64,000 nucleotides of DNA from Turneriella parva DSM 21527. GTDB lineage: Bacteria > Spirochaetota > Leptospiria > Turneriellales > Turneriellaceae. A program made the position numbers and the translations under genes. The stretch spans positions 3,162,001 to 3,226,000 of the forward strand of contig NC_018020.1 of assembly GCF_000266885.1 (NCBI RefSeq). Reading direction: 5' to 3'. Under the pieces are notes generated by a model. That model was not told the DNA's origin. It saw only the letters and a list, made by a program, of their open reading frames with translations, and did no database searches. Positions 8,054 to 40,683 of the stretch are shown here, piece after piece (position 1 is the stretch's first letter; each line of letters opens with the position of its first letter).

Positions 8054-8589
8054 ACAAGAAATTTTTACTCATCATCGTTGCGTTCACGCTCACGGTACCC
8101 GGGTTTTTTATTTTTTCGTACTGGCATCTTGGTGTTTTCAGCAGCGTCGACGTCGCGCCGCTCACCCGTTATCAGGCCGTTCTTTTTGGTGGCCGCCACC
8201 AGGGTGACTATAACAAGACGGGCGGCGAAGTGGTGAAAACCAAGAAGCTGCTGAAAAGCCTCGGCGCCGAATGCGAGCCGGTGCTTGTCTATTTCGAGAA
8301 CGCAATGAATACCGCCAAGCCAAACCTGAGGTCAGCAGGCGGATGTATCGTTGGCACGAATCTGCCAGCGAGCGTGCAGTCGGCTCTGAAAAAAGACGGC
8401 CGTGAAGCGATTACGCTCGACATCAAAAAGGGCTATCGCCTCACTACCTATGCGCAGACAGCCGTCGCACTCAGAAAAGTCTGGACTGAACTCGCGCGCC
8501 TTGCCGACAAAGGTAATGTGCTGAAGTTTCCCCTCGTGCAACTGGTGCGCGAAAACGGTAACAGCGAATTCTTAATTGGTGTAGAATGA
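8050..8589 (+). CDS. Membrane-anchored GyrI/TEX264-like protein
   Basis: A 179-residue protein. Residues 5-27 are one hydrophobic segment that anchors it, with the remainder outside or inside depending on topology. The soluble part has YQAVLFGGRHQGDYNKTGGEVVKTKKLL, then CEPVLVYFENAMNTAKPNLRSAGGCIVG, which has the pattern of GyrI-like/SOUL small-molecule binding domains: a G.Y..... helix, then a strand with yyd.p......R...G..v. The arrangement of one TM plus GyrI-like domain resembles eukaryotic TEX264, but this is judged by eye. Its stop codon lies inside the first arm of a large palindromic element shared with the convergent MarR gene. Confidence 0.65.
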   Translation: MNKKFLLIIVAFTLTVPGFFIFSYWHLGVFSSVDVAPLTRYQAVLFGGRHQGDYNKTGGEVVKTKKLLKSLGAECEPVLVYFENAMNTAKPNLRSAGGCIVGTNLPASVQSALKKDGREAITLDIKKGYRLTTYAQTAVALRKVWTELARLADKGNVLKFPLVQLVRENGNSEFLIGVE

Positions 8590-8741
8590 GTGTTTAACAG
8601 GCATCCGGAACCGCAAAAGCGGAAAGCAGCAAAGTCGCTTGCTTGCAAGCGACGACGCGCTTTAGCAGTCATTTGCGGACGCAAATGACGAGGCTTTTCG
8701 CTTTTGCGGGAGTTTTTCCGGAGCCTGCTAAACACTCATTC
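8584..8741. repeat. Cloverleaf palindromic element, copy 1
   Basis: Outer arms pair 8584-8627 with 8693-8741: GAATGAGTGTTTA with its complement, CAGGC/GCCTG, TCCGGAA/TTCCGGA and a 17-bp AT-rich helix with one G-T pair. Inside are two perfect hairpins, GTCGCTTGC/GCAAGCGAC (8634-8653) and GTCATTTGC/GCAAATGAC (8668-8689). The stop codons of both convergent genes lie in the arms. Copy 2 lies at 12186-12325 in inverted orientation. Confidence 0.85.
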
Positions 8742-9192
8742 TCGGGCGCGCGGCGAGGCCCAGTTTGCGAGTCAGGTTTGCGAGCGTTTCGAGCTCCTCT
8801 TTATTGAGGGCGCCCATCATGCGGTAGATGTTATTCATGTGTAGCGGAAAAATAGCGCTGATCAGCGATTCGCCGGTTGCCGTGAGCTCGACGCGAATCG
8901 TGCGCCGGTCGGCTTCGTCGCGGCTGCGGCGCACGAAATCGCGTTTTTCGAGGTTGTCGATAATCGTCGTCATGTTGGCGCCGCTGCGCAGAATCTTGCC
9001 CGCGAGGTCTTTCTGGTTCTGTGGGCCGAGGTGCAGCAAGATCTCGAGCACGCCGAGCTGCGAAAGCGTGAGCCCGTTTGCCTCGGCGTTGCGCGCGAGA
9101 ATGCCCTGTACGGTGTCGGCGCAGCGCATGAGCTTCACATAGGCGTCGACCTGTGCGAGTTCATCGCTGTTGCCCGAAAACCGCTTCGCCAT
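8728..9192 (-). CDS. MarR-family transcriptional regulator
   Basis: A 154-residue winged-helix regulator. The recognition region is TLSQLGVLEILLHLGPQNQKDLAGKILRSGANMTTIIDNLEKRDFVRRSRDEADRRTIRVELTATG: a helix-turn-helix followed by the wing with the DxRxxxv.LT.tG signature of MarR proteins. Flanking helices give the dimer interface. MarR proteins usually repress neighbouring genes and are released by small phenolic or acyl ligands; the adjacent acyl-CoA ligase and CitE-like lyase on the same strand are the natural targets, although no operator was identified. The stop codon is inside cloverleaf copy 1. Confidence 0.92.
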   Translation of the reverse strand: MAKRFSGNSDELAQVDAYVKLMRCADTVQGILARNAEANGLTLSQLGVLEILLHLGPQNQKDLAGKILRSGANMTTIIDNLEKRDFVRRSRDEADRRTIRVELTATGESLISAIFPLHMNNIYRMMGALNKEELETLANLTRKLGLAARPRMSV

Positions 9193-9239
9193 GCATTCTG
9201 CCTTGCGCGAAGCCTTAGGCAGTCAAGTAGAAGTGTGAG

Positions 9240-9341
9240 AGAAGTTCTGAAAAAGCCCAAATCAACAGCGCAAATGTCCTCATTGGTGCGCATGCTCTCG
9301 CGTGGCCTTCGACGCGCATGACATTTTCAGAACTTCTTTAG
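9240..9341. repeat. Long imperfect inverted repeat upstream of marR
   Basis: AGAAGTTCTGAAAA near 9240-9253 pairs with TTTTCAGAACTTCT near 9328-9341, and inside AAATGTC pairs with GACATTT (alternative register) and CGCGT with ACGCG. It fills the gap between the ligase stop and the marR start. It could terminate the ligase-lyase transcript or act as a marR leader. No T tract is present. Confidence 0.6.
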
Positions 9342-9350
9342 TCAGGTTTG

Positions 9351-10919
9351 CTAAACAATGCCCAACTCTTTCGGTATTTTTGAGCGCAGCACTTTGCCGT
9401 TCGCCGACCGGGGAAACTTGTCGAGCCGGTAGACCTTTTTCGGCAGCTTATACGATGCGAGCCGCTCTTTGCCCCACGAGAGCAATTGCTCTTCTGCGAA
9501 CGTGGCGCCTGGTTTTATCTGCACGCACATCGAGATCAGCGTCTTTTCGGGCCCAAGGTGCTCGGCGAATGCGACAATGTCGTCGAGTGCCGGATGGTCG
9601 CGGTAAACACGTTCGATCTCAAACGGCGAGACGCGGTAGCCGAACGATTTGATAATCTCATCGCGCCGACCCAAAAAGAAAATATAACCCTTAGCGTCTT
9701 GTATTGCATAGTCTCCGGTGAGAAACCAATCACCTTTAAACTGTGCTGCTGTTTGCTCGGCCGCGCGCCAATATTCGATAAATAGCCCGGGGTCGTTGCG
9801 GTTGATGCAGATCATGCCTTCTTCGCCGGCGGCGACGGGCTGCAGATTCTCGTCGAGCAGCTGCACGAGGTGGCCTGGCTGAATTTTACCCGCCGAGTTT
9901 TTCACAATATCGTCACCCTTTTTCTGCGAAATATAGTACGAACATTCAGACATCCCCAAACCTTCGTAGATCGGAAAACCGAAACGGCTCACCCAACCGT
10001 CTAAAACTTCGTCGGTGAGGTGTTCACCCGCGCACATGCAGTGCTTGAGTGAAGGCACGTCAGCAGCGGCGGCCTTTGTTTTCTGCAGAATCTGCCGAAA
10101 GATCGTCGGCACACCGATAAAAATATTGCAGCCGAATTCTTTGATAAGCGACAGCCATTTTTCGGGCGAGTTCTCGCCTTCGTAAACGATCACGGTCTTG
10201 CCGTGGTAGAGCGGGTCCATCATGGCGGTGCCGAGCACGTATGTCCAGTTGAACTTGCCCGAATGCAGAATGCGGTCGTCGCCCGTGAAATGAAACCAAT
10301 TTTCTGAGGCGGGCAAACGGCCGATGAGCGCCCGGTGCGCATGCAGCACACCTTTCGGGTAGCCGGTTGTGCCCGAAGTATAGACGAGATACGCCGGGTC
10401 GCCCGCCTTCGAGTTGTGGATTTCGAGCGCGGGCGTTTTTGCGCGCAGCTCGCCTTCAAAATCGACAGCGCCCTGAATGGTTTTGAGGCCTGAAACATAG
10501 AGCACCCCGAGTTCAGCTGACGGCATTTCCCCTGCTATGGATTTCCACAGCCCCTCTTCAGAGACCACTGCTGCAGCCCCTGAATTGGAGATGAGATAGC
10601 GCACCTCGGCTGCCGTCAGCATCGGCGACGTCGGTACCGGTATCACACCCGCGCGCATCGCGCCGAAAAAGGCGATCGGAAAAGCCACCGTATTGGGCAG
10701 GCGCAGCAGAATGCGCGAACCGGGTAGAATGCCCCGGTCTTTGAGCGAGCTTGCAAATCGCGCAGAGAGATCATCGAGCTCGGCGTAGCTGTACTCGCGC
10801 GCCGCGCCATCGCCGCTGGCGAAGATCATCGCTACCTGGTCTTGGCGATCGGTTGCCCGGTGGCGCGCGAGGCACTCCTGGGTGATGTTGAGAAACTCGG
10901 GTACGTTGTGGTTCATCAT
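9351..10919 (-). CDS. AMP-dependent acyl-CoA synthetase/ligase
   Basis: A 522-residue ANL-superfamily enzyme, cytoplasmic, that activates a carboxylic acid to an acyl-AMP and transfers it to CoA. Visible motifs in order: P-loop YTSGTTGYPKGV, A5-type GLGMSE, TGDY and GRRDEIIKSFGYRVSPFEIE (hinge and A8), and the terminal catalytic lysine in RSANGKVLRSKI. The sequence is closest in feel to benzoate/medium-chain acyl-CoA ligases, but the acid cannot be specified. It starts 21 bases after the CitE-like gene on the same strand, so the two are an operon. A shared pathway, such as activation of an acid followed by acyl-CoA lyase chemistry, is inferred. Confidence 0.92.
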   Translation of the reverse strand: MMNHNVPEFLNITQECLARHRATDRQDQVAMIFASGDGAAREYSYAELDDLSARFASSLKDRGILPGSRILLRLPNTVAFPIAFFGAMRAGVIPVPTSPMLTAAEVRYLISNSGAAAVVSEEGLWKSIAGEMPSAELGVLYVSGLKTIQGAVDFEGELRAKTPALEIHNSKAGDPAYLVYTSGTTGYPKGVLHAHRALIGRLPASENWFHFTGDDRILHSGKFNWTYVLGTAMMDPLYHGKTVIVYEGENSPEKWLSLIKEFGCNIFIGVPTIFRQILQKTKAAAADVPSLKHCMCAGEHLTDEVLDGWVSRFGFPIYEGLGMSECSYYISQKKGDDIVKNSAGKIQPGHLVQLLDENLQPVAAGEEGMICINRNDPGLFIEYWRAAEQTAAQFKGDWFLTGDYAIQDAKGYIFFLGRRDEIIKSFGYRVSPFEIERVYRDHPALDDIVAFAEHLGPEKTLISMCVQIKPGATFAEEQLLSWGKERLASYKLPKKVYRLDKFPRSANGKVLRSKIPKELGIV

Positions 10920-10940
10920 GATTCTCCTGTAATCTCTATC

Positions 10941-12113
10941 TTATTGTGCGGTGAGTGGCGGCCACCCCGGGTAGGGCCATATCTCGGCGAATTTCTCTGC
11001 GGGCAGGCTTGCAATCAGCCCTGAGACGACTTCCATAACTCCGGTATCCTGATTGCCGAGCATCATCGAACGCATCAGCAGCTGCAGCGCCTTCGCGAAC
11101 ATTGGCGGGTCCATCATTTCGTCTTCAAAGCGTATTGCCCCGCCGAGAAATGCATTGGCGCGAATCGCCTCTTCGAGAATGCGCAGCGAGCGGTGCAGGT
11201 CTTCGTTACCGGGCGAAAACCCGTAGCGCAGCAAGCGAATATGGTTGGGATGTATAACCTGCTTGCCGGTGAACCCCAGAGAAGCCTCGCGCAGTGCGTG
11301 GTCATGGATTATTCTCGCGTTCGGCTCTGCATGGCGGCCAAGCCACTCTGGCAAGAGCGCCACATCGGGTGGGTCGGCCGAAAGCAGCAATGTTTCAACT
11401 CCCCCTATAATGCCTTTGCCTGCAAGCCGGGCCTCAACCATGAGGCTGCACATGAACGGATAAAGCTCGTCTTGCCAGTTTTCGGCTGTGATCATCAGCT
11501 GCAGCGCACGCGAAAAGTCATGGATGCCGAAGACGACGTGCTCGACTTTGGGGTGAGCGAAAATCTGGTCGGCAATTTTCAGCGACTTGGGGTGCTCGAT
11601 AATCGGCTGAATCAGAATATCACCCGACAAAGAGGCGAGCAGCGAGCCGAGTTCATCGAGTTCGGCGATGCCGTGCTGTTCGCCAGCCTTCGCGAGCATC
11701 ACATCGTCGATGTAGGGGGCAATTTCTTTGAGTAGCGTCAGGTCGAGTGCGTGTTCGGGCGACGTGACCGGGTTAATGCGCACAGCGACACGCCCCGGTA
11801 TCGCGGCGCGAACGTCGGGCAATGACAAGCCCAGAAACTGCCGGCTGAGTGCCTTTTGCCGGCAGCCATCTTCGAGATCAAAAATCAGCGTGTGCGCTTC
11901 ACTCTGCCGCGCGTATTTCAAAAGCCGCTCGCGCGCTTCGGCTTCGGTCTCGTACCGGTTTTCGCGCGGCAGGTATTTGATGGGCGGGTAATAGAGCTGA
12001 ATACCGGGCCAGGTTGAGCGAATGCGCACTTCACGCGTCGCATGCTGCGCACTGCGGGTTTCTGCCTGCAGCGCGGCCCGCAGCTCTGCGCTGATTTCTA
12101 GCTTCTGAATCAT
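10941..12113 (-). CDS. HpcH/HpaI aldolase / citrate lyase beta (CitE-like) family protein
   Basis: A 390-residue TIM-barrel lyase of the CitE/malyl-CoA lyase group. Signature motifs are LIFDLEDG (metal and phosphate region), VAVRINPV (catalytic Arg), IQPIIEHPKSL, and GFTGKQVIHPNHI near the C-terminal third, which is the family's GfdGk..IHP motif. These enzymes cleave or form 3-hydroxyacyl-CoA or malyl-CoA C-C bonds using Mg2+. At 390 residues it is longer than CitE (about 290-300), with N-terminal 45 residues and a C-terminal helical tail extra. Probably first gene of an operon with the acyl-CoA ligase; cloverleaf copy 2 lies about 70 bases upstream. Confidence 0.9.
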   Translation of the reverse strand: MIQKLEISAELRAALQAETRSAQHATREVRIRSTWPGIQLYYPPIKYLPRENRYETEAEARERLLKYARQSEAHTLIFDLEDGCRQKALSRQFLGLSLPDVRAAIPGRVAVRINPVTSPEHALDLTLLKEIAPYIDDVMLAKAGEQHGIAELDELGSLLASLSGDILIQPIIEHPKSLKIADQIFAHPKVEHVVFGIHDFSRALQLMITAENWQDELYPFMCSLMVEARLAGKGIIGGVETLLLSADPPDVALLPEWLGRHAEPNARIIHDHALREASLGFTGKQVIHPNHIRLLRYGFSPGNEDLHRSLRILEEAIRANAFLGGAIRFEDEMMDPPMFAKALQLLMRSMMLGNQDTGVMEVVSGLIASLPAEKFAEIWPYPGWPPLTAQ

Positions 12114-12185
12114 GCGGCTAAATTAGCGCCGCACACCCTTATCGGAAATTAAATATCGATTGGGGTCTAATAATTTGATGTCAAA

Positions 12186-12325
12186 CGAGCAGGCTCCGGC
12201 AAAACTCCTGAAAAAGTGAAAAGCCTCGTCGTTTGTAATGCGGTTTCGGCGAAACCGCTCTACAAACGACTGCTAAAGCGGCCGAAACGGCCTGCTTTTC
12301 ACTTTTTCGGAGCCGTTCGCCTGCT
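12186..12325. repeat. Cloverleaf palindromic element, copy 2
   Basis: Outer arms: AGCAGGC/GCCTGCT (12188-12194 with 12319-12325), and a perfect 15-bp helix of 12210-12224 with 12294-12308. Inside are hairpin GTCGTTTGTA/TACAAACGAC with nested GCGGTTTC/GAAACCGC (12228-12270), spacer TGCTAAAGC, and hairpin GGCCG/CGGCC (12280-12292). It shares arms and spacer with the reverse complement of copy 1, but stem bases differ in matched pairs. It occupies most of the 12114-12350 gap. Confidence 0.85.
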
Positions 12326-12353
12326 AACAGGTTGCTGCTTCAGCAACCTGTTA
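12325..12353 (-). terminator. 13-bp hairpin at the end of the parvulin operon
   Basis: TAACAGGTTGCTG and CAGCAACCTGTTA pair perfectly around CTT, and the arm includes the TAA stop of the 12351-12941 gene. No T tract follows, so termination activity is uncertain. Confidence 0.6.
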
Positions 12354-12941
12354 GTCCAGAATCTTCTCGACCTTTTCGCCCTTTAAGACCTTTTCGAGTA
12401 TTTCCATGCGGGCATACGCATCTTCGGCGCGCTTGATCTCTTCGGGGGTTTTGCTGCCCGAAGCTTTCGCCTGGTCGATCACGCCGCGCATCTGTATGCG
12501 CTCGGCTTCGGTGTTGAGCTTCAGCTCATCCATGCGGGCGGCTGCGTAGCTGTCAGTGCGTTCCTGGTGTTTGGCGAGTTCTTGCTCGAAGATCTTGCCG
12601 TCGGCCATCGCCGTTTCAGACGGCACGAACATCGGTGCGCCATAGTCGTCGACCGGGCCCGGCGCTACCTTCGAGCGCAGATCAGACGCCCTGAAGGCAG
12701 GTGCACCCTTGAATTCAGGCTTTATGCGCGGCTCGTTCAGATTCTGCTGCTGCAGCGTCTCGCGCTCGAGGCGGTAGTTTTCGATATCCGGAAAGTCTTC
12801 ACGCGCGTCATAAGCAGAGGCGACGACTGTCACCTTATCTTTTCTCTCGTTGCTGGCCTGCTGGCCGGTGTTTTTCCAGGTAAAGAGCAGCACGACCACG
12901 AGTGCGGCAGCCGCCGCGAGCAGAATTTGTCTCTTTTTCAT
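12351..12941 (-). CDS. Membrane-anchored coiled-coil protein of unknown function
   Basis: A 196-residue unrecognised protein. MKKRQILLAAAAALVVVLLFTWK is an N-terminal membrane anchor or uncleaved signal; the remainder is polar, proline-containing in the middle (GAPAFRASDLRSKVAPGPVDDYGAPMFVP) and strongly helical at the C-terminus (about residues 120-196, rich in Glu, Lys, Arg and Ala). It overlaps the parvulin-like gene by four bases (ATGA), so it is translationally coupled to it and probably acts in the periplasm with it. No function can be assigned. Confidence 0.75.
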   Translation of the reverse strand: MKKRQILLAAAAALVVVLLFTWKNTGQQASNERKDKVTVVASAYDAREDFPDIENYRLERETLQQQNLNEPRIKPEFKGAPAFRASDLRSKVAPGPVDDYGAPMFVPSETAMADGKIFEQELAKHQERTDSYAAARMDELKLNTEAERIQMRGVIDQAKASGSKTPEEIKRAEDAYARMEILEKVLKGEKVEKILD

Positions 12942-40099: not shown

Positions 40100-40585
40100 T
40101 CAGAGCAGGGCTTTGATCACTTCATAGTCGCGTTCAATGCCCTTGCGAAACGAGCTGGCAATCTGCGATTCGAGAATGCCGCCGATCAGCGCCATGTTGA
40201 CCTTCACGGTGATTTCGTATTCGCGGCGCGAACTAGTTTCCGATTCGCCGACATATTTAGTAACCCCTGAGATTCTGAGGCGGTCTGGGTTCTGCTCTTG
40301 CATCACCTCAAAACGGTTGATTTTGCTCGCGGTATCAAAGCGCGCGGTCTCTGTCATGTTGAGAAAACCCGCGGGCACCATCGAGCGCACCGCTTCGGGT
40401 ATCTTGTCTGAGAACGAAAAAGCGCGCTTGGTCACGATCACGCTGCCTTCTTCTCTGCGATCAAGAATCTCTTGCTTTTTCAGCGCCTCTTGTTTCGAGA
40501 CGTCTTCAAAGCGGCGCTCGCGGGCCGACAACACCGCATCGACCGAAGCGGGAAAACTCTGCACGAGCCTGAAGGTGGTAGCCAT
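40100..40585 (-). CDS. SRPBCC/DUF2505-like protein
   Basis: A 161-residue protein. The start MATTFRLVQSFPASVDAVLSARERRFEDVSKQEAL and the rest (VIVTKRAFSFSDKIPEAVRSMVPAGFLNMTETARFD..., RISGVTKYV, SSRREYEITVKVNMALIGGILESQIASSFRKGIERDYEVIKALL) show the SRPBCC order: strand, two short helices, a curved sheet and a long C-terminal helix. It most resembles DUF2505. The ATG at 40585 is chosen since upstream codons fall in a hairpin and lack family similarity. Function unknown; lipid binding is plausible. Confidence 0.72.
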   Translation of the reverse strand: MATTFRLVQSFPASVDAVLSARERRFEDVSKQEALKKQEILDRREEGSVIVTKRAFSFSDKIPEAVRSMVPAGFLNMTETARFDTASKINRFEVMQEQNPDRLRISGVTKYVGESETSSRREYEITVKVNMALIGGILESQIASSFRKGIERDYEVIKALL

Positions 40586-40635
40586 AAGATTGTGGCCGCA
40601 TAGTTTTAACGCCACCTGCTCTGGAAAGAGTTTTC

Positions 40636-40683
40636 CAATTTGGGTTACGAAATCCGCCGAGGCGGGTTTCGTAACCCAAATTG
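40636..40683. repeat. 23-bp hairpin between divergent genes
   Basis: CAATTTGGGTTACGAAA (40636-40652) pairs exactly with TTTCGTAACCCAAATTG (40667-40683), and the inner CCGCC/GGCGG plus one T-G pair closes to a two-base loop. It lies between the divergent SRPBCC and receiver-GGDEF genes and leaves no room for an ordinary terminator; a regulatory or mobile-repeat role is possible. Confidence 0.8.

Follow-up and report, generated by a model that had tools for sequence, protein, structure and literature searches.

The 64,000-nt stretch of the Turneriella parva DSM 21527 genome analysed here (the window; bases 3,162,001–3,226,000 of a contig of 4,384,015 bases, the whole genome measuring 4,409,302 bases) contains two look-alike palindromes in inverted orientation, which raises the question whether they are a chance pair, a repeat that spreads as a structure, or copies of a fold kept by selection. 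Both were found where the original prediction had placed them, with a 48-nt stretch of one matching the other at 90%, and both fold better than shuffled DNA (z of -11.1 for copy 1 and -10.6 for copy 2, with 0/200 shuffles as good). The predicted differences between their arms do come in pairs (GCAAAAGCG with CGCTTTTGC, and GAAAAAGTG with CACTTTTTC). The limits were redrawn: the first element, proposed at 8584–8741, is correctly located but the repeat proper covers about 8593–8732, the outermost 10-bp arms (AGAATGAGTG/CACTCATTCT) being part of the flanking genes and missing from other copies, and the second, also correctly located at 12186–12325, extends to about 12354 and includes a 5′ hairpin (12324–12354) that is present in most other near-full copies and missing from copy 1. 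The proposed cloverleaf is indeed a branched fold, but it takes the form of a three-way junction borne by a long stem, and in most copies a separate hairpin comes before it.

Read 5′ to 3′ on the module strand, the parts follow each other as a 5′ hairpin P0 (YTARCAGGTTCC...GGAACCTGYTAR, found in most near-full T. parva copies), an outer stem (GCAGGC/GCCTGC), the inner stem P1, hairpin A (ranging in size from GCGNAGC up to 30-odd nt), the joint GCTTTAGCA, hairpin B, the joint GAG and the return arms, with P1, the two hairpins and the two joints forming the three-way-junction core. Copy 1 (TTTAACAGGC ... GCCTGCTAAA, 8593–8732, + strand, without 5′ hairpin), delimited by alignment to other near-full copies, has its P1 arms at 8611–8627 and 8693–8709, hairpin A at 8634–8653, the GCTTTAGCA junction, conserved among copies with unrelated stems, at 8659–8667, hairpin B at 8668–8689 and the conserved GAG junction at 8690–8692 (all + strand). 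Copy 2 lies on the - strand, with a stem-and-junction part at 12186–12323, a core located by covariance model R2 at 12213–12305, and P0 (CTAACAGGTTGC...GCAACCTGTTAG) at 12324–12354.

A search with a covariance model, as had been proposed for this pair, located the element at about 50 distinct places in the genome with two models, and the family is also present in relatives, so that the two palindromes are not a chance pair. BLAST with copy 1 as query gave 59 matches in the T. parva genome (the best 13 at E≤2e-22), the covariance model built from 22 copies gave 83, opposite-strand and partial matches included, and a second model of the core alone gave 52. The family in T. parva thus numbers about 50 copies, which are dispersed and whose flanks are unrelated; lone 5′ hairpins were also found in places. 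Scanning of 60 related genomes, mostly draft metagenome assemblies, detected the core in 6/6 other Turneriella (2–27 copies each) and, with 6 copies, in one genome from a sister genus; the remaining 53 spirochaete genomes of this set lacked it. The exact short-core pattern, searched against 84,980 species, returned 22 records, of which 21 were spirochaete metagenome-assembled genomes and one was a Pseudomonas contig, about as many as expected by chance. Carriage by phages was rejected, as the exact core was missing from IMG/VR, as was a known structured RNA, since Rfam 15 at gathering thresholds and at E≤1 gave only tRNAs above family cut-offs. The literature searched held no description of these repeats, which constitute a small mobile DNA element family previously unrecorded in Turneriella.

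The stems of divergent copies have almost no sequence in common, with pairing retained throughout and the joints fixed. The core model was derived from 11 short-hairpin copies, because MAFFT misaligned the left arms where hairpin A is long; in these 11 divergent cores 96.4% of cells were paired, and 17/23 pairs showed changes on both sides. Extension to 82 cores from several species gave 97.2% standard pairs, with 444 cells changed on both sides versus 119 in shuffles, and no more than 49% pairing in slid-partner controls. Because the alignment of 82 copies was made by fitting to the model, it leans towards structure, which does not apply to the 11-sequence alignment, and the counts in both treat copies as independent where these are related to one another. 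As the stem bases have nearly all changed in matched pairs, the fold itself matters.

Paired changes can also arise without selection on the fold, if template switching between the arms during replication keeps palindromes perfect. Such switching is known to create, maintain and repair hairpins (PMC8794818), and there are indications of it in this family: the terminal repeats change in step at both ends (L167 versus L168), and the outer arms of copy 1 may have been made in this way. Its right-hand outer arm (8733–8742, +) is the native 3′ end of a MarR-like gene, with homologous sequence at the empty site of the sister species G003, while its partner (8583–8592, +) contains GAATGA, which matches how the left-hand gene natively ends in G003, and otherwise resembles the right flank copied in inverted orientation. 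These odd arms would be best explained by a switch at the shared GAATGA. Template switching as sole cause predicts no strand bias: where palindromes are maintained or corrected only as DNA, about as many A-C as G-T mismatches are expected. In the core helices we counted 39 ungapped G-T versus 6 A-C (23:5 in inner stem P1 and 16:1 in hairpin B; 46:7 on the model alignment), unlike the terminal repeats (5:14), the 5′ hairpin (4:4) and the sequence just outside the inner stem (24:26), with the significance of these counts being optimistic, as copies are not independent. Because G-T exceeds A-C in the core helices and not elsewhere, the fold appears to be selected on the module strand, and within the core only. 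Template switching also leaves unexplained why the unpaired joints are invariant in copies with no stem sequence in common, and as an account of the fold without selection it is improbable, while it is probably the source of many of the paired changes.

Copies at tRNA genes allowed the same position to be compared between species. The interval between tRNA-His and tRNA-Leu contains the element at the same place and in the same orientation in T. parva and in the relative G005, with most stem bases replaced, in pairs, and the joints kept but for one base (GCACTTTAGCA in G005). In G001 the outer stem is present at this site and the core has collapsed, and in G004 and G006 the site has no element, which limits how general this copy is. 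At the tRNA-Gln site the G003 orthologue is 90% identical in the element versus 67% in the downstream flank, and at a further orthologous site (1,725,952) the G003 element is 97.6% identical versus 88–93% for the flanks. The rewriting of stems in pairs at the tRNA operon, together with the massive covariation and the one-strand G-T excess of the core, bears out the proposal of a fold kept by selection.

The elements are also mobile. The site of copy 1 is empty in G003, as are two more T. parva sites, and the orthologous site of copy 2 in G003 has a degenerate remnant without core and 5′ hairpin, the latter absence leaving a clean TA junction; when 12 sampled G003 copies were compared with a set of T. 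parva copies, two had an orthologue in that set and 10 had none. Element ends were set by anchored patterns, as gapped alignment of flanks over-extended them. T. parva copies have short ends (YTARCAGG/CCTGYTAR) and TA-like junctions only, and the subfamily of G004, G005 and G006 has the core between terminal inverted repeats of about 22 bp, with ends of about GGGCGCGNGATTTNTYAGGGGG and its complement. Target duplications of 8 bp, with 7 or 8 of the 8 positions matching, were present in 11/16 GGGCGCG-ended copies versus 2/240 mismatched flank pairs, and were seen in this subfamily only, the subfamilies differing in their ends. Since in that subfamily the core lies inside terminal inverted repeats with 8-bp duplications, it moves as DNA. 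The idea of a repeat that spreads as a structure, put forward at the outset as the alternative to a selected fold, likewise holds, given some 50 copies with unrelated flanks, empty sites in the sister species and target-site duplications in relatives. A minimal 74-bp element in G005 (L237, 1112–1185) consists of nearly just the two terminal repeats (GGGCGCGCGATTT...), and G004 harbours a sister element family (for example L225, 3018–3220, and L231, 717 onwards) with ends GGGCGCGGGATAAATCAGGTGG, a multi-hairpin core arranged differently and apparent 8–9 bp duplications (AAAATAGAT at L231).

Movement as DNA allows for a reading in which the fold is kept for DNA, with a structure-reading transposase or nuclease recognising the folded single strand in transposition, and the resident copies simply being recent. 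The strand bias alone is no proof of RNA, because G-T beats A-C in single-stranded DNA too, and the module strand folds better with DNA energies as well (73/84). REP/IS200-type transposases use single-strand palindromes as their substrate, T. parva has three Y1 transposases, and one copy of the element is nested in the loop of hairpin B of another (L111, at 3447687–3447828 of the T. parva genome). Against this, each Y1 gene lies by its own palindromes and the element flanks 0/3 of them, the search for Y1 genes in G003, G004 and G009, which all carry the family, gave no match, duplications of 8 bp are indicative of a DDE-type enzyme, and the tRNA-operon copy stayed put while its stems were rewritten. 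We consider a fold kept for DNA unlikely, and a RAYT/REPtron system was rejected as mover on the same Y1 evidence. The three Y1 genes are RAYT-like (L031, L032 and L033, at 4295927, 24872 and 1284493), and the perfect palindromes flanking them, one each (GGGGTAGGTTTAAACCTACCCC, CCACGGGTTTAAACCCGTGG and CCACCGAATTAATTCGGTGG), represent separate REP-type families.

The position of the elements relative to genes was assessed with genes called by longest ORF. Of the T. parva copies, 44 were assessed, and 30 share their strand, on the module side, with the gene upstream, 19 of these lying between convergent genes; this orientation at gene ends is compatible with an RNA-acting repeat of the ERIC/Correia kind. 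At the other 14 the upstream gene is on the opposite strand, which speaks against a role in the host transcript. At about 20/44 copies a stop codon is located inside the 5′ foot; the TAA within P0 of copy 2 is the stop codon of the ORF at 12351–12941 (- strand), and in the MarR-like gene the TAG overlaps with copy 1 and is, judging from G003, a native stop. These stop codons, together with the one clean TA junction without 5′ hairpin in G003, would fit a TA-targeting palindromic repeat that is tolerated only for restoring stop codons, with the fold a by-product of long inverted repeats. Already weakened by the covariation counts and the one-strand G-T excess, this account does not explain why two separate hairpins covary while the joints stay fixed, nor the tRNA-operon copies and a different-ended subfamily with 8-bp duplications, and is highly improbable. 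In the GGGCGCG-ended copies a TTGAC sequence was found at most 50 bases downstream in 10/16, versus 3.9% background and 2/16 on the mirror side. These boxes, in the right flanks of L153, L154, L156, L158–L161, L164, L187 and the T. parva copy at 3445751, lie about 11–42 bases downstream in a fixed orientation, which suggests a targeting rule in the relatives not found in the literature searched. They resemble -35 boxes, and since no convincing -10 boxes were found near them, they are putative promoter elements.

ERIC and Correia repeats have TA as target. The single clean TA junction in our data concerns the 5′ hairpin only, and the Turneriella family further differs from these repeats in sequence and in having another subfamily with 8-bp duplications. 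It has in common with ERIC, NEMIS/Correia and RUP that these are palindromic mobile repeats, often at gene ends, whose RNA fold can change mRNA processing (PMC10969869), and we found no equal to the extent of its covariation in the literature searched. A close resemblance also exists with QMITE2 of Coxiella burnetii and other prokaryotic miniature inverted-repeat transposable elements (MITEs), which have terminal inverted repeats of 23–29 bp and direct repeats of 7–9 bp, and are short and non-autonomous with a non-coding core, with many at gene 3′ ends and having a stable predicted transcript fold (PMC10969869). The Turneriella elements likewise are short, non-autonomous and non-coding, with many dispersed copies, terminal inverted repeats, target-site duplications and positions at gene 3′ ends; unlike QMITE2, they have a covarying three-way-junction core with fixed joints, common to subfamilies with different ends. 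A terminal-repeat search of seven genomes, six of which are drafts, found no autonomous transposon with the same ends as possible source of the transposase, and as their ends were not matched to any such transposon, we classify the elements as MITE-like rather than as MITEs of a named transposon. REP/REPIN sequences with RAYT, such as the GTAG and CGTC palindromes, are also dispersed extragenic palindromes, and for CGTC repeats a known transposase is likewise lacking (PMC3733652), but REPs are single hairpins of 20–40 bp with an unpaired tag and the Turneriella element is a branched structure of about 140–190 nt. Identity with CGTC-tagged REPs was rejected, because divergent copies do not conserve the tag, and integron attC sites (RYYYAAC/GTTRRRY core sites beside gene cassettes) were rejected by inspection, as the ends GTTAGCA/CTGCTAA do not fit and the copies are dispersed singly.

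Taken as a whole, the data are best explained by lineage-restricted, short, non-autonomous MITE-like elements which carry a structured one-strand module, probably acting as RNA in the host transcript, to which we assign a probability of about 0.6. A putative transposase, supplied in trans, would move the element as DNA via its ends, and at many T. parva sites the 5′ foot YTA(A/G) serves as stop codon to the gene upstream, so that the module could be read into the 3′ untranslated RNA of that gene as the folding strand, with P1, hairpins A and B and the invariant joints GCTTTAGCA and GAG. Selection would then keep the fold, even as template switching and point mutation replace the stem bases pair by pair. 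We infer from the resemblance to ERIC and Correia repeats that the folded RNA most likely affects how stable the host transcript is or how it is processed, the invariant joints being a candidate binding or cleavage site. Small mobile palindromes are common in bacteria, and whether their fold is selected or a by-product of inverted repeats is seldom testable; the Turneriella family makes this question directly testable by offering dozens of copies whose joints are identical and whose stems are unrelated, an internal control for strand bias, and a tRNA-operon copy that two species have at a fixed site.

Rather doubtful in our opinion, the core may instead be a functional non-coding RNA that is independent in Turneriella and old at sites such as tRNA operons, and that mobile ends of at least two kinds have captured, of which one lands at stop codons and the other about 10–45 bp upstream of the -35-like TTGAC boxes in one fixed orientation. 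If true, this would be a structured regulatory RNA carried as transposon cargo.

Two other palindromic structures were observed in the window. The first is located just upstream of the MarR-like gene (9240–9337; AGAAGTTCTGAAAA ... TTTTCAGAACTTCT) with 70 nt between its arms, and had no further copy among the loci fetched. The second (40542–40683) is a long, near-perfect hairpin with 23-bp arms and a 2-nt loop, preceded by a second, partly complementary arm.
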